Below are positions 14,257 through 29,202 of a stretch of 33,339 nt of DNA, one piece after another. The translations under genes and the position numbers were made by a program. Source of the stretch: a virus; IMG/VR virus record IMGVR_UViG_3300020446_000041, positions 1 to 33,339 of that record. One strand, 5' to 3'. The first letter of the stretch is position 1. Every line of letters starts with the position of its first letter. The notes beneath the pieces were generated by a model that was not told the origin of the DNA, did no database searches, and worked only from the letters and a program-made list of their open reading frames with translations.

Positions 14257-14449
14257 AGATTACCAAAAGGCAGGCGAAACATTCTGGCCAAAGTATTGGT
14301 ATGTTGCTAAGGAACTTGGTGAAGATGCAAAACCAGAAGACGTTATCAAGGTGATGGAAGCAGTCGGTGCTGTTGCATTGAAACTTGCATTGGAAGAAAA
14401 AGAAGGACCATTTGGATTTAACAAAAAGGACGACGCTGAAAAATTATAA
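14237..14449 (+). CDS. Small acidic hypothetical protein
   Basis: 70 residues, starting MKILTLEDYQKAGETFWPKY. A GAGGAG ribosome site precedes the ATG. Last gene of this early block; a late-type promoter overlaps its stop codon. No family recognised. Confidence 0.65.
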   Translation: MKILTLEDYQKAGETFWPKYWYVAKELGEDAKPEDVIKVMEAVGAVALKLALEEKEGPFGFNKKDDAEKL

Positions 14450-14452
14450 ATA
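14445..14452 (+). promoter_or_regulatory. Late promoter TATAAATA
   Basis: An exact match to the T4 late promoter box, 27 bases before the ATG of the gene at 14480, at the boundary between early small genes and a block of basic proteins. Confidence 0.65.
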
Positions 14453-14479: not shown

Positions 14480-15820
14480 ATGAACTTACAAGGTATTGCT
14501 GAAGCATATAGTCAGGTACATGAGAAGAAAGACCCTTCTTATCTTGAGACTGATATGAAAAAGCGTCAGAAAAATAATGAAAAAGCGCGTAAAGATATGA
14601 AGAAGATGGGTTCTATGAGTAACCCACACTTTGGAGATGGTCCAACAGGTAGTATGTCCTCTGAGGAAATGAGTGCTGATGAGAAGAGCATGAAGAAGTT
14701 CCAGGAACTTCAAAAGAATGTAGATCAGAAGAAGAAAAATATCAGAGGTAATGATTCCGCCGAGCAGAAGGCACGTCTTGAGAAGAAGCGCGGAATGAAA
14801 CTTGATGACCATCCTCAGTTCAAGAAAGAGGAAGTCAGTGGTATTGCTGCTGCATACCAGGCAGTTTATAACAAAGTAGAAGAAGAAGTAGAAGATATTG
14901 AAGAAGCAGATTCATTAGCAGCAATGGCGGCACGTCGTGAAAAGCGTCTTGCTGCACAGAGAAAGCGTGAAGGCACTACCGCATCTGGAAGAGACTTTGG
15001 TCACGACTATTCACTGTCTGATAAACAACAAAAAGCAAGAAGAGATGCTGAGTTTAAGGCAGGAATGAAGAAAGAAGAAGTAGAGCAGGTTGCTGAAGCA
15101 GATTCATTAGCAGCAATGGCGGCACGTCGTGAGAAGCGTCTTAAGGCACAGAGAAAGAAAATGGGCACTAGTGCTACCGGTCAAGACTTCGGTCATGACT
15201 ATAGCCTTACTGCTGCCGAGCGTAAGAAGAGACAAGACAAAGAATTTGATGCTTTCATTGGTAGAGGAAAGAAGAAGACCAACGAAGAAGTAGAAGCAGT
15301 TGATGAAGGACTGACTGGTGTAAGAGCAGACCGTGCCCGTCAGATGCAGGATTCTGATACCAAGTCAAAGGGTGGAAAGAGAACTCCTGCTGACCGTGAC
15401 ACTGCTTTCAGACTCGGAACTGGCACTGCTGAAAAAGGTACGAGAAAAGTAGGTGGTAGAGGTGGCGATGAATATGGTGATCGTGGTAGAGGTAATGCTG
15501 CCAAGCGCCGTATGACGACGGAAGAACTGGAAGGTAATCCAGTTTATGAAGCAACCAAGAAAGACATCAAAGAATTTGTTGGTGCTATGCTTGGTAACGC
15601 AGCAAAGGGTGCGGCAATGGGAGCAGTGAATTCTGCTGGTAAAGCACTTGCCACTCCTGTAGGTGCAGGACTTATTGCTGGAACTGCGGGTGCTGTTACT
15701 GGTGGAAAGAAAAAAATTAAGAGATCAGTAGCAACTGGTGCTGGTGCAGCTGCTGGTGCTGCACTTGGTGGATTGCCTGGTGCTGTAATCGGTGGTATTG
15801 CTGGTCGCGCACTTTCGTGA
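14480..15820 (+). CDS. Basic repeat protein with C-terminal glycine zipper, probable virion or internal head protein
   Basis: 446 residues, very rich in Lys, Arg, Glu and Ala. The N-terminus MNLQGIAEAYSQVHEKK contains IAE-A, like the T4 prohead protease site (I/L-x-E). A similar element, SGIAAAYQAVYNK, recurs near residue 120. Two 38-residue repeats (142-179 and 206-243) begin EADSLAAMAARREKRL and end DFGHDYSL. The C-terminus (~370-446) is a glycine zipper (GAAMGAVNSAGKAL, VGAGLIAGTAGAVTGG, GGLPGAVIGGIAGRAL) able to insert in or pack against membranes. It is behind a late promoter. Function not established; a head-packaged or ejected protein is my inference. Confidence 0.6.
   Translation: MNLQGIAEAYSQVHEKKDPSYLETDMKKRQKNNEKARKDMKKMGSMSNPHFGDGPTGSMSSEEMSADEKSMKKFQELQKNVDQKKKNIRGNDSAEQKARLEKKRGMKLDDHPQFKKEEVSGIAAAYQAVYNKVEEEVEDIEEADSLAAMAARREKRLAAQRKREGTTASGRDFGHDYSLSDKQQKARRDAEFKAGMKKEEVEQVAEADSLAAMAARREKRLKAQRKKMGTSATGQDFGHDYSLTAAERKKRQDKEFDAFIGRGKKKTNEEVEAVDEGLTGVRADRARQMQDSDTKSKGGKRTPADRDTAFRLGTGTAEKGTRKVGGRGGDEYGDRGRGNAAKRRMTTEELEGNPVYEATKKDIKEFVGAMLGNAAKGAAMGAVNSAGKALATPVGAGLIAGTAGAVTGGKKKIKRSVATGAGAAAGAALGGLPGAVIGGIAGRALS
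14903..15208 (+). repeat. Two 114-base direct repeats within the coding sequence
   Basis: Units at 14903-15016 and 15095-15208, in frame. The first 36 bases differ at no or almost no positions and later parts diverge. Each encodes EADSLAAMAARREKRL and continues to DFGHDYSL. This indicates an internal duplication of a protein module. Confidence 0.85.
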
Positions 15821-15838
15821 TATAATCACCACTAAATA
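15821..15838 (+). promoter_or_regulatory. Late-type box with adjacent early-like -10
   Basis: ACTAAATA (15831-15838) resembles the late box. TATAAT (15821-15826) lies 10 bases upstream with a weak TTGCTG 17 bases before it (15798-15803). TATAAT is at the centre of a small inverted repeat, GTGAT-ATA-ATCAC. Both precede the nucleotidyltransferase gene. Confidence 0.45.
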
Positions 15839-15875
15839 TAGTATACTGGTATCGTAAGGAAACCTTTACAGAGTT

Positions 15876-17135
15876 ATGAAAAAGTTCAGTCAGTTCCTTT
15901 CCGAAGCAGGAGAAACGACTGTATCCTCTCAGGCCCGCAAAATGGGTCTGAAAGGAGACGGACATGGTGGATGGTATGATCAACAGGGCAAGTTCAAAGC
16001 AAAAACTGTTGATGGCAAGTTAAAGGTTTTCTCAGGACGTGAAGCAAAGGCAGAAGAAGAGAAACAAAATAAAAAGAAAGCAGCGGCAGACAACGTAAGG
16101 AGTGCTGCTAAGACTCCTGCTGCAACTCCTGCACAGAAGAAGCAACCTGCACAGCAACAACAAAAGCAAGCAACGAAACCAGCACCAGAAGCAGAGACAG
16201 AAAGTGAAGAGTCCACTTCTACTGGCGCTGTGATTGTATTCGGTCGTTTTAATCCTCCAACGATTGGACACGAGAAACTGTTGAAAGCAGCAGCAACTCA
16301 GGCAAAGAGAGAGGATGCAGATTTAGCAATCTATCCTAGTAGAACTCAGGATAAGAAAAAGAATCCACTTGATCCCAAGACCAAGATTGGATTCATGAAG
16401 ACGATGTTCCCAGACTATCAGGAGAGCATCTTTGATGATAATAATGCAAAAACTATCTTTGATGTTCTGTCTGCTAAGTATGCAGTTGGATATAAGAGTG
16501 TAACCATTATGGTTGGTCAAGATCGTCTTGCAGAGTTCCAAGGTCTTGCTCAGAAATATAATGGTTCTGATCTGTATTCTTTTGATGAGATTAAGGTTGT
16601 CTCTGCTGGTGCTCGTGACCCTGATGCAGATGACGTATCAGGAATGTCTGCATCTAAACTAAGAGCACATGCTGTCGAAAATGATTTCAATGCATTCTCT
16701 AAGGGTGTTCCCAATAAGATGACGGTCATCCAGAAGAAAGAGATGTTCAATGCTGTTCGTAAATCTATGAACATCAAAGAAGAACTGTGGCAGATCGCAC
16801 CTAAATTTGACCCTGAGTCATTGCGTGAGTCATATGTCAAAGGAAAGATTTTTAAAATCGGTGATATTGTAGAGAACTTGAACACTGGTTTGGTTGGTCA
16901 AGTCAACCGCCGTGGAACCAACTATATCATCTGTGTGACAGAGAACGGTATCATGTTCAAGTCTTGGTTGAGGGATATCAAAGAGTATACCGAAGTCAAG
17001 ATGGACAGTATGATGAGAGATAAGAAGCATCCAAATACTTTGGTAGGGACTAGTGGATTCTTGAAGTATGTTCAGAGCATGACCCCAGGAGCAATGCTCA
17101 ATAAACGCTATGTAGTAAAGGTAGGTAAAAAGTAA
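15876..17135 (+). CDS. Nucleotidyltransferase with a capsid-targeting-like N-terminus
   Basis: 419 residues. Residues 1-10 (MKKFSQFLSE, followed by AGE) align with the T4 internal-protein capsid-targeting peptide MKTYQEFIAE-A, including a prohead-protease-type L-x-E site. Residues 55-115 are a Lys/Ala/Gln/Pro linker. The core (~118-300) is an NMNAT/PPAT-type nucleotidyltransferase: GRFNPPTIGH at 123-132 (the H-x-G-H-like site) and GMSASKLR at 256-263 (the ISxxxxR-like motif). Residues ~323-372 (KIFKIGDIVENLNTGLVGQV) look like an SH3/KOW-type barrel. Likely reaction: transfer of AMP or CMP from an NTP to a small phosphate substrate; which one is not visible. Late-type promoter upstream. Confidence 0.8.
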   Translation: MKKFSQFLSEAGETTVSSQARKMGLKGDGHGGWYDQQGKFKAKTVDGKLKVFSGREAKAEEEKQNKKKAAADNVRSAAKTPAATPAQKKQPAQQQQKQATKPAPEAETESEESTSTGAVIVFGRFNPPTIGHEKLLKAAATQAKREDADLAIYPSRTQDKKKNPLDPKTKIGFMKTMFPDYQESIFDDNNAKTIFDVLSAKYAVGYKSVTIMVGQDRLAEFQGLAQKYNGSDLYSFDEIKVVSAGARDPDADDVSGMSASKLRAHAVENDFNAFSKGVPNKMTVIQKKEMFNAVRKSMNIKEELWQIAPKFDPESLRESYVKGKIFKIGDIVENLNTGLVGQVNRRGTNYIICVTENGIMFKSWLRDIKEYTEVKMDSMMRDKKHPNTLVGTSGFLKYVQSMTPGAMLNKRYVVKVGKK

Positions 17136-17143
17136 TATAAATA
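17136..17143 (+). promoter_or_regulatory. Late promoter TATAAATA
   Basis: An exact late box directly after the nucleotidyltransferase stop, 28 bases before the ATG at 17171. The extended TATAAATAATTT is shared with the site at 31138. Confidence 0.65.
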
Positions 17144-17170
17144 ATTTCAACTCCTTGTTTTTTGGCGGAA

Positions 17171-17347
17171 ATGAAGTCCTGGAAAGAATTTGCTCAAGAT
17201 TTAGAAGAGAAGAAGCAACTTGATCCCGTAGGTCAAGAAGACGGCGACATCGATAATGATGGCGACGAAGATGAGACCGATAGTTATCTGGCAAAGCGTC
17301 GTAAGACTATCGGTAAGGCAATCGCTAAGAGCAAGGGTAAGAAATGA
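17171..17347 (+). CDS. Small protein with capsid-targeting-like start and EF-hand-like acidic loop
   Basis: 58 residues. MKSWKEFAQD at 1-10 resembles the T4 targeting peptide MKTYQEFIAE. Residues ~27-42 (DGDIDNDGDEDETDSYL) look like a calcium-binding EF-hand or dockerin-type loop (D-x-D-x-D-G). The tail is very basic (KRRKTIGKAIAKSKGKK). The ATG at 17171 is preferred over a TTG at 17162. The stop overlaps the next ATG. Probably a late, small head-associated protein (inference). Confidence 0.6.
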   Translation: MKSWKEFAQDLEEKKQLDPVGQEDGDIDNDGDEDETDSYLAKRRKTIGKAIAKSKGKK

Positions 17348-19764
17348 CTCCCGAGAAGAAAGAAGCCGTACAGAAGGCACTTGACGACACGATGACCGTC
17401 AGTCAAGCAAGGCAACGCAAACTTGATCTCAGGGCAAAGGAGTTAGAGATTCGTCAAGGAACTCTAGATCGTAAGAAGAAGAATGATGCTGCCGCCCAAG
17501 AGCGGAGAGATGCTGCTGCCAAGAAGAAGGAGAGTAATGCAGTAACTGATGCTATTAGTCGTCGTAAGAAAAAGAAAGCAGATATAGAAGCAAAGAAATT
17601 AGAGAAAATCAAGGGTATCGCTGCTAAGAGAAAAGCAGGTGTTGATAAGAGTCTTTCCCGTGCGAAACAAGTATCAAAGACAGGAAGAAGTTCTGAGACA
17701 ATTCAGGGTGCCGGTGAGACTGCCGATGGCGATGCAACAGCACAAACCAAGATGATGAAGGGTGCTGCCAGTGCTGGTCTTGCCGCTGCAAGAACAGGAT
17801 TTAATCTTGCCAAAGCAGGAGCAAAGGCACTTGGATCTGCTCCTTCGAGAATGAAGGCAGGTTCATTACAGCGTAAAGCAGATAGAAAGCAGAAGAAAAT
17901 TGATGATCGTAATGAAAAACTAGTTGCTGCACAAGACAAGAAGGTTAGTGACAGACTCAATCGTAGAAGAATGAGTAAGGTCAAGAGCAAGGTTGAGAAA
18001 CTCAATCCCTTTCGTAGTAAGTCTAGTGGCAGTGATTCTACTGATACTGCTGCAGAAAAACGATCTGCCGCAAAGGAAAGAAATGATTCTGCAAAAACAA
18101 AGTCTGCATCAAAGGTAATAGAAAAACCCAAAGCATTAAGTCCTGCTAAACCCACTAAGAAATCTGCCGCTGGCGATCCTCTGGCAAAGGCAGCACCTAA
18201 TGTCAAAAAACCAACTGCTCCCACTAAAGCATCTGCTGCTAAGGATCCTCTGGCAAGAGCATCTTCAAACAAACCAGTAAGACCTGCTCGTAGAGCACTG
18301 CCACCAGCAGGTGGAGTTAACAAACCAACTACACAAGCAAAACCATCAGCAGCAGGTAAAATGTCTGACGCAGAGAGAGCACGAAAGGATCCTAAGTTTA
18401 GAAGAGAGTTGATTGCTAAGAGAAACAAAGGTATGAACGAAGAGTTCTATCAGTATCTCATGGAAATTGAGAGAATGGAGAAGAAGACTGATAAGGTCAT
18501 CGACATCATGAAGGGTAAGAACAAGATTGAAATCTCTCCAAAGGTTAGTGAAGAAGTTACTGGTGGTATCCTGATTCAAGATGCTGAAGATTACAAACCA
18601 CTTGAGATTGAAACTGTTGACGTAATCAAAGCAGAACCACTCCAAGAATACAGTGCTCTGGTCAGACAGGGTATCAAAGTTGGCGGTAAGAAAGGTGGCA
18701 GAGCAGTTCAGGCAGGTGAAAAGGCAGCAATTGCCAAGGGTCAAAAGATGAAGGCAGACGCTGCAAAAGGTTCAGCAGAAGCAGGTAAAGGTGAAAAGAT
18801 TGGTGCTGCTGTAGGCGGAACCCTTGGTAGTGCTGCTGGATTTTTAGTTCCAGATGGTCCTGCAATGGTTGCTGGTGAAATCGCTGGCGGTATTGCTGGT
18901 TCTAAGATTGGTGGCGCAATCGGTAAAAAATTCGACAAGAAACCTCCCATGAAAGAAGAAGCATCTGATGCAATGAAGGATCGTCGCATGGAACGTGGCG
19001 GTGTTGGTGGTAATATTGATTACAGCAAACCACCTGCTGCACCAAATACATTTGGTAAAAAGAAACCAAAGAAAGGTGGTCCATCTGCAATGGATATTGT
19101 AAAGTCACAAATCCGTGCAAAGTATGGAGATAAAGCAATCGTGGACACCAAGAAAACTAAGAAAGAAAGTTTCTCTGATTGGAGACGTGATCTTGATATT
19201 CAAGAGTTTATTAAATTCACTGATGCTGCCAAGCGTAGGGCAGAGTACAGAAAGAACTCTCCTACCGGTGGTGATTATACTAAGTGGAAACCAGGTGTAG
19301 ATGTTCCTTTTGTTGATAATGATCTTAAACTTGAACCATTCAAGGCAGGTTCGCATAAAAATCCACTCACCTATAAAGGTCAGGATGTAACTGCTGACAT
19401 GGCAAAGGATTATGCAGGCAAAAAACTAAGTCAGGCAGGCGATGCGGTTAAGGGTGCCGCTAAGTCAGTAGCGGATTATGCAACGAAGAATCCTGGTAAG
19501 GCAGCTGCTATTGGGGCAGGTGTCGTTGGTGCCGGACTCCTTGCCAAGAAAGTTCTTGGTGGTGATAAGAAGAAAGAACAGCAAGAACATAGTGCTTGGC
19601 GTTCTGAACTAAATTATGTTGAGGAAGGTGAAGGTAAAAAGGATGCTTGCTACCACAAAGTGAAGGCATCTGCTAAAGTGTGGCCAAGTGCATATGCTTC
19701 TGGTCGTCTTGTCCAGTGCCGTAAGAAAGGTGCTGCTAACTACGGAAACTCTAAAAAGGACTGA
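17344..19764 (+). CDS. Large basic modular protein with glycine zippers, probable virion or internal protein
   Basis: 806 residues. About 1-230 is a charged helical region rich in KK, RR and AA; 230-345 is Lys/Ala/Pro/Ser low complexity. About 370-445 carries an acidic part (NEEFYQYLMEIERMEKK). A glycine zipper (IGAAVGGTLGSAAGF to IAGSKIGGAIGKK) spans ~485-530, and a second (KAAAIGAGVVGAGLLAKK) lies near 718-735. FSDWRRDL (~610) and SAWRSEL (~750) are related Trp-Arg elements. The last ~43 residues hold a two-Cys domain (DACYHKVKASAKVWPSAYAS, then QCRKKGAANYG) recalled from other cyanophage proteins. No enzyme motif seen. Late cluster; function not established. Confidence 0.6.
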   Translation: MTPEKKEAVQKALDDTMTVSQARQRKLDLRAKELEIRQGTLDRKKKNDAAAQERRDAAAKKKESNAVTDAISRRKKKKADIEAKKLEKIKGIAAKRKAGVDKSLSRAKQVSKTGRSSETIQGAGETADGDATAQTKMMKGAASAGLAAARTGFNLAKAGAKALGSAPSRMKAGSLQRKADRKQKKIDDRNEKLVAAQDKKVSDRLNRRRMSKVKSKVEKLNPFRSKSSGSDSTDTAAEKRSAAKERNDSAKTKSASKVIEKPKALSPAKPTKKSAAGDPLAKAAPNVKKPTAPTKASAAKDPLARASSNKPVRPARRALPPAGGVNKPTTQAKPSAAGKMSDAERARKDPKFRRELIAKRNKGMNEEFYQYLMEIERMEKKTDKVIDIMKGKNKIEISPKVSEEVTGGILIQDAEDYKPLEIETVDVIKAEPLQEYSALVRQGIKVGGKKGGRAVQAGEKAAIAKGQKMKADAAKGSAEAGKGEKIGAAVGGTLGSAAGFLVPDGPAMVAGEIAGGIAGSKIGGAIGKKFDKKPPMKEEASDAMKDRRMERGGVGGNIDYSKPPAAPNTFGKKKPKKGGPSAMDIVKSQIRAKYGDKAIVDTKKTKKESFSDWRRDLDIQEFIKFTDAAKRRAEYRKNSPTGGDYTKWKPGVDVPFVDNDLKLEPFKAGSHKNPLTYKGQDVTADMAKDYAGKKLSQAGDAVKGAAKSVADYATKNPGKAAAIGAGVVGAGLLAKKVLGGDKKKEQQEHSAWRSELNYVEEGEGKKDACYHKVKASAKVWPSAYASGRLVQCRKKGAANYGNSKKD

Positions 19765-19769
19765 CTATC

Positions 19770-20804
19770 ATGGATACCGAGATTGTAAAAGAGGACTTAC
19801 GTAAGTGGTTCAAAGATGGTGGTTGGAACCGATACAACACCAAAGGTGAGAAGGTGGGTAAATGTGCCCGCGAGGATAAGGATGGTGATGGCAAGGCAGA
19901 TGGTCCAAAACCAAAATGTCTTCCTGCATCCAAGGCAGCAAGTCTCGGTAAGAAAAAAGTAGCAGCAGCAGTCAAGAGAAAAAGAGCAGAAGATCCCAAT
20001 CCCGATAGAACAGGAGCAGCAAAGAACGTGAAAACAGAAGAAGTTCAACAGTTCATGGAGAAGTGCTGGAAGGGGTATGAGAAAAAAGGTATGAAGACTA
20101 TGTTTGGTAAGAGATATCCAAACTGTGTCAAAAAAGAAGAAGTCGAACAGATTGATGAACTTATTAATCCTAAAATCAATCTTCCTTTTAGTGGAGATAA
20201 GATAGTCCATAGTGGCGGTTTTGGATCTACTCTAGGAGGTGCTGCAGCAGCAGGACTTGGAGCAGCAACTGCTTATGGTCTGAGTCAACTGAATAAAAAG
20301 AAAAAGAAAAAAGAGGTCAAAAAAGAATCATTCCAATCTTTTAATGAGAAGGCAATGAAATGCTGGGACACCCATAAAAAAGTTGGAATGAAGATGAAAG
20401 GTGGTAAACTGGTAAACGACTGCCGCCCAAAGAATGAGGAAGTCGAAGTAGAAGAGAGTCACAAGAATCCTGAGAGTGTAAAAGGTATTGCCAAAGAATT
20501 AGATAAGGCAGTCGAAATGCACAAGAGTCAGGCAAAGAGACTTAGAAAAGCGGGTGTATCTGAGGCAGCAGCATGGACAAAAAAGGAAGGTAAAAATGAA
20601 AAAGGTGGACTTAATGAAAAAGGTAGGAAGTCGTATGAACGTGAAAACCCAGGAAGCGATCTTAAGAGACCTTCAAAGAAAGTTGGGAACAAGCGTAGAG
20701 CGTCTTTTTGCGCGAGAATGAAGGGCATGCGTAAGCGTCAGAAACCATCTAATAATACTGGCGAAGACCGTCTGTCTAAATCACTTAGAGCGTGGAACTG
20801 TTAA
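19770..20804 (+). CDS. Basic modular protein with two Cys-Trp repeats
   Basis: 344 residues, strongly basic. Residues 1-85 form a conserved basic domain with C32 and C50 (PKPKCLPASKAASLGKKK). Two related modules follow: 98-119 (EKCWKGYEKKGMK to PNCV) and 196-218 (MKCWDTHKKVGMK to NDCR), each with two Cys. Between them is a small glycine zipper (149-173, GGFGSTLGGAAAAGLGAATA). Residues ~235-344 contain AAAWTKKEGKNEKGGLNEKG and KRRASFCARMKGM, a domain I recall at the end of other phage proteins. DNA binding in the head would fit the charge, but nothing proves it. It starts 5 bases after the large gene, with an AAAAAGGA ribosome site. Confidence 0.6.
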   Translation: MDTEIVKEDLRKWFKDGGWNRYNTKGEKVGKCAREDKDGDGKADGPKPKCLPASKAASLGKKKVAAAVKRKRAEDPNPDRTGAAKNVKTEEVQQFMEKCWKGYEKKGMKTMFGKRYPNCVKKEEVEQIDELINPKINLPFSGDKIVHSGGFGSTLGGAAAAGLGAATAYGLSQLNKKKKKKEVKKESFQSFNEKAMKCWDTHKKVGMKMKGGKLVNDCRPKNEEVEVEESHKNPESVKGIAKELDKAVEMHKSQAKRLRKAGVSEAAAWTKKEGKNEKGGLNEKGRKSYERENPGSDLKRPSKKVGNKRRASFCARMKGMRKRQKPSNNTGEDRLSKSLRAWNC

Positions 20805-20822
20805 TTAATTTTTAAGGTTGTT

Positions 20823-21002
20823 ATGACTACTAAAGATCAAAAGCGTAGAGATGCGTTGGGGTTATTTTATGAGAGCGTATTGAAACCCGACCCTAAACTT
20901 AGGAACTGTGCTCACAATCAAGAGTGCTATCATGAGTTGATGGAGTGGCGAGAAGAAATCATTAGATATCTGGATGAGCGTAGAAACAAAGAGTTTCACT
21001 AA
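20823..21002 (+). CDS. Small hypothetical protein
   Basis: 59 residues, starting MTTKDQKRRDALGLFYESVL, with two Cys (CAHNQEC) and a charged helical C-terminus. It lies 18 bases after the preceding gene. Its stop codon is part of a late-type box for the next gene. No family recognised. Confidence 0.65.
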   Translation: MTTKDQKRRDALGLFYESVLKPDPKLRNCAHNQECYHELMEWREEIIRYLDERRNKEFH

Positions 21003-21005
21003 ATA
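20998..21005 (+). promoter_or_regulatory. Late-type promoter ACTAAATA
   Basis: ACTAAATA overlaps the TAA stop of the gene before and precedes the ATG at 21029 by 23 bases. Confidence 0.45.
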
Positions 21006-21028
21006 AGCCAGTTATCATAGATAAAATT

Positions 21029-21223
21029 ATGCTGTCATTTCTATTACCCCTCGCATCAAAGATTATTTCTGATGCCGTAAACAAGATTCCTGAGAACGAG
21101 GAATTGGGCGAAAAACTTATTGATGTATGTCTGGTTATCCTTGGTAAAGCAGTGAAACTTACCAAGACCGATATGGACGATAAACTTCTGGAACAGGTAT
21201 CAGCAGCAATCAAAGCTCGCTGA
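21029..21223 (+). CDS. Small amphipathic hypothetical protein
   Basis: 64 residues, starting MLSFLLPLASKIISDAVNKI. The hydrophobic N-terminus and the alternating helix KLIDVCLVILGKAVKL suggest membrane association or a helical bundle. A small membrane-active protein is possible, but there is no lysis-specific motif. A terminator follows at once. Confidence 0.6.
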   Translation: MLSFLLPLASKIISDAVNKIPENEELGEKLIDVCLVILGKAVKLTKTDMDDKLLEQVSAAIKAR

Positions 21224-21228
21224 TTTAT

Positions 21229-21258
21229 AGGAGACCAAAAGTACGGTCTCCTTTTTTT
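21229..21258 (+). terminator. Rho-independent terminator
   Basis: AGGAGACC pairs with GGTCTCCT (21229-21236, 21245-21252) around an 8-base loop, followed by T to 21258. The last T is the first base of the next late promoter. Confidence 0.9.
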
Positions 21259-21265
21259 ATAAATA
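21258..21265 (+). promoter_or_regulatory. Late promoter TATAAATA
   Basis: An exact late box fused to the terminator T-run. It is 35 bases before the ATG of the probable virion protein at 21301. Confidence 0.7.
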
Positions 21266-21300
21266 TCAATATATCACAAAGGATTAAAGGAGAGTTAGTA

Positions 21301-21795
21301 ATGTCTCTTTGGGGAACAAAAGACACAGTATACTCAACGGGTAACGTCAATCTTGACGTTTCTACCGGAGTAGTCACGAAGCAAAGTGGCAGTATTGATT
21401 TCGCATCAAACGTAGAAGCGGGTCAGATTATCACCATCGACGGAACTGCTGAAGGTGTAATTGAGAGCGTCGATAGTGCTACTCAACTTACCATTGGTAC
21501 TGAGTATCTGCCAGCTAGTGACCTTAGCAATAAAACTTACGAGGTTCGTGAGAAACCCAAGTCAACACTGTTCGATTCAAACTACAGTGCTGCTGAAATC
21601 TTTGGTGTAGACACCACTGAACAATCAGTTGCTCGTGACGCCGGTTCGCAATATAGACCTGCTCATGCTGGTTGGGTTGGAATTAGTTCTTATACCGACC
21701 AACATGGTAACACCAGAGTCAAGACTGAAGTTTTAGTTGCTGGAAGCAGCATCTCTGCTGATGCCGGTGACGATCAACAACTGCCAGATAGCTGA
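21301..21795 (+). CDS. Probable virion structural protein
   Basis: 164 residues, starting MSLWGTKDTVYSTGNVNLDV. It is strand-rich, Ser/Thr/Gly/Asp-rich and acidic, with repeated small beta elements (AGQIITIDGTAEGVIESVDS). This start and composition resemble a cyanophage protein reported in virions; I recall the family but cannot verify it. An exact late promoter, its own terminator upstream and an AAAGGAGAG ribosome site point to strong late expression. Residues ~113-126 (GSQYRPAHAGWVGI) look like a distinct C-terminal element. Confidence 0.65.
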   Translation: MSLWGTKDTVYSTGNVNLDVSTGVVTKQSGSIDFASNVEAGQIITIDGTAEGVIESVDSATQLTIGTEYLPASDLSNKTYEVREKPKSTLFDSNYSAAEIFGVDTTEQSVARDAGSQYRPAHAGWVGISSYTDQHGNTRVKTEVLVAGSSISADAGDDQQLPDS

Positions 21796-21813
21796 TAACT
21801 AATTTGATTTAAT

Positions 21814-22185
21814 ATGCGATTTGATGAACTCAATGAATCGAACTACATAATGTTCGCCATGAAAAATTATGAGAATCCTCAGGCAGTAACGCAAGAGGAT
21901 TTTTATGATGACATGAAGCGATTTAAGTGGATCAAAAGGTTATTGAATAAGTACAGAAATACAGGAGAGATGAATGTTCCTCTCCTGTTAAATCACTTTA
22001 TTATTCTCTATAATATTTTTGGTGATGCCACGACACCACTTCTATTTTATCGAATAGATAGTGAATTGTGGACTATCCTTAAAACTTTTATAGTTTACCT
22101 TGACCGATTACCAGAATACCCAATCTCATATATTCATAAGATTCCAATCGACTGTGGATGTATGGATATCTTAGATAACTTATGA
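21814..22185 (+). CDS. Conserved hypothetical protein
   Basis: 123 residues, starting MRFDELNESNYIMFAMKNYE. Helical, with aromatic residues and three Cys or C-G-C near the C-terminus (IDCGCMDIL). A perfect 9-bp hairpin lies in the coding sequence at 21961-21988. It overlaps the next gene by 4 bases. I recall similar proteins in cyanophages, function unknown. Confidence 0.7.
   Translation: MRFDELNESNYIMFAMKNYENPQAVTQEDFYDDMKRFKWIKRLLNKYRNTGEMNVPLLLNHFIILYNIFGDATTPLLFYRIDSELWTILKTFIVYLDRLPEYPISYIHKIPIDCGCMDILDNL
21961..21988 (+). other. Perfect 9-bp inverted repeat inside a gene
   Basis: ACAGGAGAG (21961-21969) pairs with CTCTCCTGT (21980-21988) around a 10-base loop. No T-run follows, so it is not a terminator. 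The GGAGAG arm and an ATG in the loop could also mimic an internal ribosome site. Confidence 0.6.
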
Positions 22186-22376
22186 AAACCTTCTATCAGT
22201 TTTACGAAGAAATGATGGCTGCTAATGCCGCTGGCGCTAGTGGTGGTTTTGGTGCTAACTCTCCTGCTGCAGGACCCACTGCTGGTAAAGAAACCCCTAT
22301 GGGTAAAGTCCAGAAAAGGAAGGTAATCGGTCTTGGTCCTGGATCAAGAAAACGTTGGATGCAGAAAAATGGATGA
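22182..22376 (+). CDS. Small protein with capsid-targeting-like N-terminus
   Basis: 64 residues. MKTFYQFYEE at 1-10 resembles MKTYQEFIAE of T4 internal proteins. A flexible Gly/Ala/Pro region follows, then a basic end (KVQKRKVIGLGPGSRKRW). No enzymatic motif. The ATG overlaps the preceding stop. A small packaged internal protein is a reasonable inference. Confidence 0.6.
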   Translation: MKTFYQFYEEMMAANAAGASGGFGANSPAAGPTAGKETPMGKVQKRKVIGLGPGSRKRWMQKNG

Positions 22377-22765: not shown

Positions 22766-23758
22766 ATGAGTTTTGTTGACAGCAAGTATATCGGACTGGT
22801 TTCGGTTCGGTTGCAGAAGTTTAGTCGAAAAAAGGAAAACCTTTATACTTTTAGATGCCCATACTGCGGAGACTCGCAGAAGAATAAGAACAAGACCAGG
22901 GGTTATATCTACAAGTATAAGAACGACCACAACTTCAAGTGTCACAACTGTGGTGCTTCAAAGAGTTTTACTAACTTTCTGAAGGATCAGGATGTAGGTC
23001 TCTATGACCAATATGTAATGGAACGATACAAGTCAGGATTGACTGGTAGAGCATCCAATACACCAGATCCAGTGATCCCGAGTAGCAAACCACACTTTAA
23101 GAAGAAAGACTTTGATCTTCAAAGAATTTCTGAACTAAATATTTCTCACCCGGCAAAGATCTACCTTCAAAAAAGACAAATACCAGACAAGTTAATGCGG
23201 GAGTTTTACTTCTGCGAGAAGTTCAAACAGTGGACTAATACTCAGAAACAAATGTTTGAGAGTGAAGAGAATGACGAACCTCGGATCATCATTCCACTCA
23301 AGGATAAAAAAGGAATCTTCGGGTTCCAGGGACGGGCACTCAACCCCAAGTCCAAACTTAGATACATTACTGTAATGCTGAATGATGAAAGACCAAAGAT
23401 CTATGGATTGGATAAAGTCGATGCGTCCAAACCTATCTACATCGTCGAAGGACCCTTCGACTCGACGTTCATCAATAATGCGGTTGCAATGTGTGGGTCT
23501 GACGTTAGTATTAGGTCGCTTGGTTGGAGCGATTATATTTGGGTTTTTGATAACGAACCACGTAACAAACAAATCTGTGACCGAATCTCCCGAACCATCG
23601 ACAACGGAGATAAGGTAGTAATCTGGAAACCAGAGATAAAAGAAAAGGATCTCAATGATATGGTCCTTGCGGGACTAGATGTACAAGAAGTGGTACGGTC
23701 TAACACCTATCACGGATTAAATGCAAAAGTAAAATTTAACACTTGGAAAAGAGTATGA
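22766..23758 (+). CDS. 61: DNA primase, gp61-like
   Basis: 330 residues (T4 gp61 has 342). The N-terminal zinc site has C31-P-Y-C34 and C59-H-N-C62. A TOPRIM-like segment YIVEGPFDS has E228 as the likely metal-binding Glu, followed by IWVFDNEPRNKQI, the Asp element. Gp61 makes RNA primers with helicase gp41. The start follows a ribosome-site-like GAGGAAAG and a strong promoter. The stop overlaps nrdA by 4 bases, so primase and reductase are translated from one message. Confidence 0.95.
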   Translation: MSFVDSKYIGLVSVRLQKFSRKKENLYTFRCPYCGDSQKNKNKTRGYIYKYKNDHNFKCHNCGASKSFTNFLKDQDVGLYDQYVMERYKSGLTGRASNTPDPVIPSSKPHFKKKDFDLQRISELNISHPAKIYLQKRQIPDKLMREFYFCEKFKQWTNTQKQMFESEENDEPRIIIPLKDKKGIFGFQGRALNPKSKLRYITVMLNDERPKIYGLDKVDASKPIYIVEGPFDSTFINNAVAMCGSDVSIRSLGWSDYIWVFDNEPRNKQICDRISRTIDNGDKVVIWKPEIKEKDLNDMVLAGLDVQEVVRSNTYHGLNAKVKFNTWKRV

Positions 23759-27397: not shown

Positions 27398-27405
27398 GAT
27401 AAATA
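27398..27405 (+). promoter_or_regulatory. Late-type promoter GATAAATA
   Basis: Seven of eight bases match TATAAATA. It lies 7 bases after the terminator T-run and 18 bases before the ATG of the large gene at 27424. Confidence 0.55.
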
Positions 27406-27423: not shown

Positions 27424-29202
27424 ATGAATCTATATAAGCATGCCCGTAAATATATTGACGTAAAGGACCTTAGGCGTTTACACAAAGAAAAGATAAAGAA
27501 AAGAAATATTGCTGAGAAAAAGAAACAGCAAGAGATAATTCTTGATGAACTGAAAAAAAATGAGATGAAAACAAGTCCAAAGTTTTCTAATTGGAGAAAG
27601 GAACTTCAAGAGAGTGAATGGTTTCCCATTCCTGGATCTGGACCAACCAATTCTGCGTCACAGTCATTTGAATATGGCGGAGAGGGTGGTCCTCGATTTA
27701 CAGCTAATGGTCTTGGTGGTCAGGATGTATATCCACAAAATATAGATTTCTTTGGAGATCAAATTCCAACACCATCTTATTCTAATCTAGCACTTCAAGG
27801 TTATGCTCCTTTGTTGCAAATGCAAAAGAGGGGAAATCAAACGGAAGATGAAAGAATTGATGCTGAGATAAGAAAGTTACAAGAACAGATAAAACAACTT
27901 GATCAAAAAATATCCAATCTTAGTTTAGAACAAAAGGAGTTTGAACCCGAATATACGGGGATGACACAAGATCAATATCTTGATAGAAAGGAAGAGATCA
28001 ACAAGAAATGGGCCGAGAAAACTAGTTCACTTAGACAAAGCTTGAATTTTTTACGACTAATGATGCGTAGTAAATCAGCATCAGAGTCAGAGTTAATAGC
28101 AGCTTTCAACAAATATTATGCATATGATGATGCTCGTATGAAAGAACTTGCTGCATTAGATGCTGAATATAAAAGTCAAATAGACTCACACGCAAAAGCA
28201 GTTGATGCTCATTCTATTCTTTATGCTGCAAAAATTAATTCTGCCAATCAAAAGCAAGATGCGCTAAGAGCAAAAATTGTTGAATTAGAAAAACAAAGAC
28301 CCATTAATCAACAACTTGATGCTTCTCAGGAGGCATATCCAAATCTTCCCTTTATGGGTGCTAGGGTTCAATCTGCTGCTGGACAACCATCATTTAATTA
28401 TGATCCCTCCAAAACTCCATTTGGTGCTGATGCGTTTATGGGTGAAAGATCTGCTGCTGCCAATGCTGAAAAGCAAGAACTTGCTAAGGCAGAAGCTCAG
28501 AGAAGGAGAGAGGCAGCAGCACCTGAACCAGCACCTGAACCAGCACCTGAATCAGCACCAATTCCTATTCTTGATTATGGTGTTAATATTGCAAGATCAA
28601 TTGCTGCAAATAAACCAATTAGAATACCACAAAGTAAAATACCACAATCTGAAATTGATAAATTAGTTCAGGGTATATCTAATTCACCTGGGACTCTATA
28701 CCGAATTCCCATCAATACAAAAGAGGAACCATACTCGGATGAAAACATTTATGAACTTCCAAATGGAGAAGTTCGTACTCATACTGCAGGAACTAAAGCA
28801 AGGTATGGTAATAATACTATGCACGTTGATCTCAATGATTTAGGTCATTTTGGAAATATTAATCCTCTTGCCGCTGCAGGACAAGCACAACTTCAAATTG
28901 TTAAACCAGAAGACGGTGAACCATATTTGGTTTACACTGACCATGCTTATCGAAACTTGACTTCTACTGATCCTGGTGAAGGATCATACAATCCCCTTGT
29001 AGGAGCTGCAGATTGGGTTGTACATACGGTTCTTGGAAAAAATGATCCCAATAAACCAAATACTGGTGCAATGGCAAACTATCCTCCCAATATTAAAGGT
29101 GATGTAAGAAAACAAATCAGAGTTCCATATAGTCAATTAACACAGATGATAAAACATCATATCAATTTTCCAGGTCGTAAAAAGAGAAAGAAAAAACCTT
29201 GA
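27424..29202 (+). CDS. Large late protein, probable virion structural protein
   Basis: 592 residues. The basic N-terminus (KHARKYIDVKDLRRLHKEKI) is followed by FSNWRKEL at 54-61, an element shared with the modular protein at 17344. A long coiled coil (~138-290, DAEIRKLQEQIKQLDQKISN) comes next, then PAPE repeats near 366-378, a mixed C-terminal domain (~390-580) and a basic tail (GRKKRKKKP). No enzyme motif recognised; VDLNDLGHFGN and YTDHAYRN are distinctive. The gene uses more A/T than the replication genes. A late box and its own position after a terminator support late expression. Confidence 0.6.
   Translation: MNLYKHARKYIDVKDLRRLHKEKIKKRNIAEKKKQQEIILDELKKNEMKTSPKFSNWRKELQESEWFPIPGSGPTNSASQSFEYGGEGGPRFTANGLGGQDVYPQNIDFFGDQIPTPSYSNLALQGYAPLLQMQKRGNQTEDERIDAEIRKLQEQIKQLDQKISNLSLEQKEFEPEYTGMTQDQYLDRKEEINKKWAEKTSSLRQSLNFLRLMMRSKSASESELIAAFNKYYAYDDARMKELAALDAEYKSQIDSHAKAVDAHSILYAAKINSANQKQDALRAKIVELEKQRPINQQLDASQEAYPNLPFMGARVQSAAGQPSFNYDPSKTPFGADAFMGERSAAANAEKQELAKAEAQRRREAAAPEPAPEPAPESAPIPILDYGVNIARSIAANKPIRIPQSKIPQSEIDKLVQGISNSPGTLYRIPINTKEEPYSDENIYELPNGEVRTHTAGTKARYGNNTMHVDLNDLGHFGNINPLAAAGQAQLQIVKPEDGEPYLVYTDHAYRNLTSTDPGEGSYNPLVGAADWVVHTVLGKNDPNKPNTGAMANYPPNIKGDVRKQIRVPYSQLTQMIKHHINFPGRKKRKKKP
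28519..28560 (+). repeat. 12-base tandem repeat encoding PAPE
   Basis: GCACCTGAACCA twice, then GCACCTGAATCA and a partial unit. In frame it encodes an (A-P-E-P) spacer between the coiled coil and the C-terminal domain. Confidence 0.85.

Follow-up and report, generated by a model that had tools for sequence, protein, structure and literature searches.

The locus described here raises the question of whether a block of late genes in a cyanophage fragment encodes proteins carried inside the phage head, and by what signal they would be brought there. A preliminary description had listed four proteins with N-termini resembling a capsid-targeting sequence and had compared them to T4 IPI-IPIII as a set of internal head proteins. 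The window, by which we mean the whole stretch of 33,339 nucleotides that was analysed, is judged by gene content a 33-kb piece of a T4-like cyanophage and constitutes the entire record. It carries in order a sliding clamp, clamp loader, gp43, UvsX, gp41 and MazG and, further on, a gp61-type primase, NrdA and NrdB, and its nearest sequenced relative by DNA comparison is S-SRM01. Genes are named here by their first nucleotide (Table 1). We consider it likely, from sequence and from published mass spectrometry of related phages, that the block encodes head-interior proteins, namely an enzyme (15876) packaged by means of an N-terminal tag and a gp61.1-type mimic of the capsid arm (22182).

Table 1. 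Features of the block, with positions in the window (arrows in sequences mark the cleavage site)
Feature	Position	Strand	Basis or remark
TATAAATA late-promoter-like box	14445..14452	+	Before the 14480 gene
446-aa basic repeat-rich protein; tag rejected	14480..15820	+	Start unconserved; matrix score -23.8; TATAAATA at 14445
Cytidylyltransferase/NMNAT-like protein, 419 aa	15876..17135	+	phrog_395, E 2e-98; PF01467 above cut-off
Capsid-targeting-like N-terminus MKKFSQFLSEA, predicted gp21 site LSE↓A	15876..15908	+	Matrix rank 1/460; in training family
Second leader module AxxxGLxGDGHGGWYDxxGxFxAKTVxGxL, about residues 14-52	15915..16031	+	Model; recurs in S-CREM2 gp14 and gp12
TATAAATA late-promoter-like box	17136..17143	+	Box scan
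58-aa acidic protein, MKSWKEFAQDLEEKK and D-rich/KRR module; weak tag candidate, not accepted	17171..17347	+	Matrix score -1.5; module common to cytidyltransferase family phrog_764
806-aa modular basic protein, pI 10.0, glycine-zipper-like stretch (weak)	17344..19764	+	phrog_727/38880
344-aa modular basic protein, pI 9.9, two CWxxYxxxG-like motifs, C-terminal DUF6321	19770..20804	+	PF19846, E 3e-20
TATAAATA late-promoter-like box	21258..21265	+	Before the 21301-22376 genes
gp61.1-like small basic protein, 64 aa, pI 10.3	22182..22376	+	Two genes before gp61-type primase at 22766; matrix rank 2/460
Capsid-targeting-like N-terminus MKTFYQFYEE	22182..22211	+	In L007, L009, L011, L012; not in L015, L016
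Mimic of post-cleavage N-terminal arm of major capsid protein	22209..22307	+	Capsid-arm profile match

The tag and its occurrence in virion proteins

N-termini were scored with a matrix of 11 positions built solely from those of 13 cyanophage cytidylyltransferases. Among the 460 start codons of the window, 15876 ranked first (27.2) and 22182 second (8.2). Shuffled N-termini, a comparison that the preliminary description had proposed, bore out the rarity of the pattern: a score of at least 8 was reached by 2 of the 49 window genes where 0.0085 would be expected (about 0.01 such starts per proteome), and the independent match is that of 22182 only, because the matrix was trained on the family to which 15876 belongs. 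When the 1580 start codons of T4 were ranked with this cyanophage-built matrix, gp61.1, IPIII and IPII took places 1 to 3 and IPI the ninth.

Mutagenesis in T4 has assigned targeting to residues 4 and 7 and processing to residues 8 and 10, Asp-10 stopping processing and not targeting (PMC9026906). The 15876 start agrees with this pattern, having aromatic residues at 4 and 7, the processing residues at 8 and 10 and a small residue after Glu-10; by the T4 rule, targeting of the protein and a cut at LSE↓A are to be expected. For 22182, in which F4, F7, Y8 and E10 are present and Met, not Ala, follows Glu-10 (in near relatives only), targeting would follow from the same rule and cutting is uncertain. 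The N-termini MKSWKEFAQD (17171), MKTFYQFYEE (22182) and MNLQGIAEA (14480) stand exactly where the preliminary description placed them; of its four candidates those at 15876 and 22182 held, and the other two had to be given up. At 17171, W4 and F7 are followed by Asp-10 and Leu-11, with neither Glu-10 nor the Ala after it, and the score is -1.5; because Asp-10 blocks only processing in T4, this protein is perhaps targeted but uncut. The 14480 start (-23.8) lacks the features of a capsid-targeting tag and is unconserved, its homologues beginning with MNRHDLQKLAEAY or MNRHDLEKLNVAY, so that its IAE-A site is incidental.

The virion list of S-CREM2 contains 52 proteins (PMC10665884). The five top-scoring annotated starts of this phage (gp154, gp14, gp13, gp6 and gp136) all belong to virion proteins on that list (p 6.5e-4), as do all of those scoring above 10 (4/4, by published mass spectrometry). 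A rank-sum test over all S-CREM2 starts gave p 0.78: for the great majority of virion proteins the score carries no information, and the tag singles out just a few of them. In S-SCSM1 alone, one of two clear tags, that of the NMNAT, is flagged as virion and the other is not, which amounts to no enrichment (p 0.31). Pooling both phages at a score of at least 10 gave 5 of 100 virion-flagged proteins against 1 of 401 others (p 0.0015), small numbers in which gp154 and the NMNAT are members of the training family of the matrix. A generic [LIVMFY]xE[AGS] site near the N-terminus did not serve as a predictor, as virion proteins were not enriched for it (p 0.33 and p 0.44).

Tag-like sequences were also seen elsewhere. 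In T4 gp23 (L051:4945-6510), the protein's own cleavage region at residues 57-66, AFGSFLTE↓A, resembles the targeting tag, which suggests a recognition element common to both. A small tag-bearing family, M[KR]xFxQFMSESVNISGDFNG, is found in L012 (101-aa frame), L025:13451-13771 and L088:44215-44535; it is not virion-flagged in S-SCSM1 despite virion genes on either side. Short Cys-containing proteins with a tag are MRSFDNFIEEAATKRCPTGKYYCFTDKKCKK (L047, 80-aa frame in a stretch around a capsid gene) and, in S-SRM01, MKSFQEFLFEEEKS (L064, 67-aa frame).

A copy of the capsid arm at 22182

The genes 21814, 22182, 22373 and the primase at 22766 stand in an order that is repeated in relatives. When the 368 window frames were compared with a capsid-arm profile, 22182 alone matched significantly (E 2.6e-4); the phage's own capsid gene lies outside the fragment. 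A profile of the remaining cyanophage mimics also matched 22182 (E 2.2e-4). As in the gp61.1 family, an E[ED]M[MVI]xAG-like motif, here YEEMMAANAAGASGGF..., is followed by the arm copy. In tblastn, 22182 or the first 63 residues of S-CREM2 gp160 used alone gave zero cross-phage matches.

The same gene comes up in other phages when capsid proteins are compared with whole phage genomes. The S-CREM2 capsid protein gave extra short matches, spanning its residues 40-95 or so around and just past the LLTE↓A site, in gp160, S-H34, P-RSM4, Sf-FS3 and L016, and T4 gp23 gave matches of this kind in CC2, EC-F1 and Apostate when compared with five other T4-like genomes. In most phages examined the mimic gene is found next to the gp61 primase gene or shortly ahead of it, the Sf-FS3 copy being unplaced. 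T4 61.1 itself reads MKTFKEFIKEDMVAGDSGGNPENISIGTTSGAVVNKGP... against FLTE↓AEIGGDHGYNATNIAAGQTSGAVTQIGP in gp23. In 11 of 14 phages the mimic aligned with its cognate capsid arm better than any of 500 shuffles did; ACG-2014f, P-SSM2 and S-SKS1 show little or no mimicry. The alignment score of T4-type mimics is 81 with the arms of their own family and 27 with those of cyanophages; for cyanophage mimics it is 53 with their own family's arms and 27 with T4-type ones, and the two kinds of mimic are scarcely alike. Judged by these alignments, the gp61.1 family copies the mature N-terminal capsid arm, each virus family its own. A finer correspondence, in which a mimic matches the capsid of its own phage best, was found within cyanophages (p 0.003) and was rejected within Straboviridae (p 0.39).

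A tag stands in front of the mimic in near relatives of the window, in P-SSM2 (MKTFKQFQEAA) and, separately, in T4 (gp61.1, MKTFKEFIKE) and Boboto, and other mimics have a different N-terminal part. Compared with T4 gp61.1 (phrog_1823) and cyanophage phrog_696, 22182 is alike in tag, arm copy, basic tail and proximity to gp61, and it gives weak in-register matches (E 0.7 and E 0.07, respectively); unlike gp61.1, it copies the cyanophage and not the T4 arm, and the direct sequence match is not significant. It is probable from this combination that 22182 is the orthologue of T4 gp61.1. Published mass spectrometry places the products of two genes at the 22182 position, S-CREM2 gp160 and S-SCSM1_97, among the virion proteins of their phages. 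The core of 22182 would probably bind inside the shell at the arm site, with the basic tail possibly directed towards DNA or cargo. More generally, and tentatively, the gp61.1 family from T4 to cyanophages may be a virion peptide that copies the arm of its own capsid, occupies inner-shell arm-binding sites (for example, those left free by absent arms close to the portal or the pentons) and evolves in step with the capsid, a proposal that we regard as possible and short of probable.

The mimic might instead regulate the assembly core or the prohead protease, for example as a substrate decoy, and not serve as a shell-binding tether. In favour of this, the alignment of T4 gp61.1 with gp23 residues 58-94 is free of gaps and runs across the FLTE↓A cleavage site, and the tag and the capsid cleavage site both read F-x-x-F-[LI]-x-E. 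Most orthologues beyond T4, Jiaodavirus and the window group, however, keep the mature-arm part only and are without the pre-cleavage part, which makes such a role appear unlikely.

The tagged enzyme and a portable leader

The AlphaFold model of the 15876 protein is a moderate one (mean pLDDT 62, 17 sequences). It consists of a small module fold (pLDDT about 75-80), a disordered linker at residues 53-113, an NMNAT/NadD-like core and a small C-terminal beta domain, and Foldseek relates the core to NadD/NMNAT structures (best E 5e-5); a PDB sequence search with the protein gave no match. The signatures of NMN/NaMN adenylyltransferases, (H/T)xGH and SxSxxR on a NadD-like fold, are present as PPTIGH and GMSASKLR. 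According to published mass spectrometry, orthologues occur in the virions of S-CREM2, S-SCSM1 and S-SM1, the S-SM1 cytidylyltransferase starting MKKFSAFLNEA, and virion presence has been reported for an S-CRM01 kinase that starts MISFDQFLSEK. Because the tag is found on virion-borne enzymes of S-CREM2, 15876 is very probably a packaged enzyme, predicted to be NMN-adenylyltransferase-like. In S-SKS1, the cytidylyltransferase frame (L026:9001-10251), which is unannotated in the record, is broken by stop codons beyond the leader.

In this family the tag is followed by a second module with the consensus AKxxGLxGDGHGGWYDxxGxFVAKTVxGxL. The tag, often together with this module, stands on three unrelated enzymes of the S-CREM2 particle, namely the cytidylyltransferase, an APH/ChoK-like kinase and an HNH protein. 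When tag and module were combined in a profile made from 11 sequences, its only matches in the whole S-CREM2 genome were the APH/ChoK-like kinase gp14 (twice), gp12 and gp154, all of them virion proteins. The gp12, gp14 and ACG-2014f leaders are part of the profile, and the informative part of this result is therefore that there were zero matches to non-virion S-CREM2 proteins. Outside S-CREM2 the profile found counterparts of both the kinase and the HNH type in S-H34 and, in ACG-2014f, one of the HNH type, with no match in T4; the S-SCSM1 NMNAT, a virion protein, carries the leader as well. Read from these sequences, tag and second module form a portable leader that is common to the kinase and HNH protein of related phages. 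S-CREM2 gp12 (L004:7704-10313), deposited as Cas9-like, is by our reading of the sequence an HNH protein that bears the leader, and it has relatives in S-H34 and ACG-2014f.

Alternatively, these N-termini might be merely tag-like, the enzyme acting in the infected cell as an auxiliary metabolic gene product and its detection in virions being due to contamination. Carry-over of such enzymes in CsCl preparations is raised by the authors of both mass spectrometry studies, and some cytidylyltransferase orthologues, such as those of S-PM2 and HTVC008M, are without the tag. Nevertheless, contamination seems distinctly unlikely, given that M1, F4, F7, E10 and A11 are invariant in 17 sequences (15876 and relatives) whereas the linker varies freely in sequence and length, that the tagged S-CREM2 proteins are unrelated enzymes that were all detected, and that such starts are so rare among shuffled sequences. 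If 15876 is packaged, its T4-type targeting sequence would carry it into the prohead, where the prohead protease would then remove the tag at LSE↓A; the enzyme would be packaged with the DNA and probably delivered at infection, and the predicted NMN/NaMN adenylyltransferase activity could affect NAD pools ahead of phage gene expression.

The late block and its known counterparts

Most of the boxes that had been described in front of the genes of this block were confirmed. TATAAATA occurs at 14445, 17136, 21258 and 31138, each 35-43 nt from the next start, and other boxes are GATAAATA at 27398 and CTAAATA at 15832. NATAAATA lies at most 80 nt upstream of five genes, against 0.78 ± 0.86 at random positions (1 of 500 trials as high); T4 61.1 has no TATAAATA box within 120 nt upstream. 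Long modular proteins with a basic pI (9.7-10.0) are encoded by 14480, 17344 and 19770. The C-terminus CYHKVK..VWPSAYASG of 17344 and the CWxxYEKKG module of 19770 both recur in the S-CREM2 virion protein gp160. Across 14480-20804 the genes are late and encode mostly basic, modular proteins that have relatives among virion proteins, and the corresponding MazG-primase interval of S-SCSM1 contains seven virion-flagged genes, among which are the NMNAT, the counterpart of 22182 and a long basic neighbour.

It is accordingly fair to describe the block as a set of head-interior proteins, on the ground of these virion-protein relatives and not of a tag shared by all; virion presence is known for the orthologues, from the published mass spectrometry of other phages. 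The internal-head-protein reading is upheld for 15876, by its invariant tag and its orthologues in three virions, and for 22182, by the tag in near relatives and by the same-position orthologues in S-CREM2 and S-SCSM1 virions, and it fails for 14480 on the ground originally given. The likeness to IPI-IPIII needs revision, as the block holds one tagged enzyme and one capsid-arm mimic related to T4 gp61.1 and not to the internal proteins, beside large untagged neighbours. T4 IPI-IPIII and Alt, with their capsid-targeting sequence, share the N-terminal pattern M-K-x-aromatic-x-x-F-hydrophobic-x-E-A and basic character, and the cyanophage-tag matrix finds the internal proteins. Unlike these, however, the window cargo is an NMNAT-like enzyme, the mature parts are without visible homology, and the second leader module gave no match in T4.

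The virion enzymes of S-CREM2, S-SCSM1 and S-CRM01 belong to the same families and were found in virions by mass spectrometry; the available parts of those papers propose no packaging signal, and the common leader offers one. It would provide a sequence rule for head-loaded cyanophage enzymes, for which cargo or contaminant is an open point in virion proteomics papers. In our search of the open-access literature (subscription journals lay outside it), gp61.1 was named in two papers, in one of them only as a table entry, and 'cyanophage' and 'capsid targeting' occurred together in a review. For gp61.1, uncharacterised in the best-studied of phages and sometimes automatically labelled a capsid protein, the arm mimicry points to a role that can be tested. 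That 22182 and gp61.1 are functionless, decaying pieces of a duplicated capsid gene, as the shortness of the common stretch and the label 'major capsid (domain-containing) protein' in some T4-like records might suggest, is very improbable in view of a position by gp61 kept in two virus families, a gene present in over a thousand records, a mimic that tracks the arm of its own family and two detections in virions.

Downstream of the GATAAATA box, 27424-29202 encodes a 592-aa protein with no PHROG or Pfam match, whose motif FSNWRKELQE resembles the F[SD]xWRxxL stretches of the 17344 protein.
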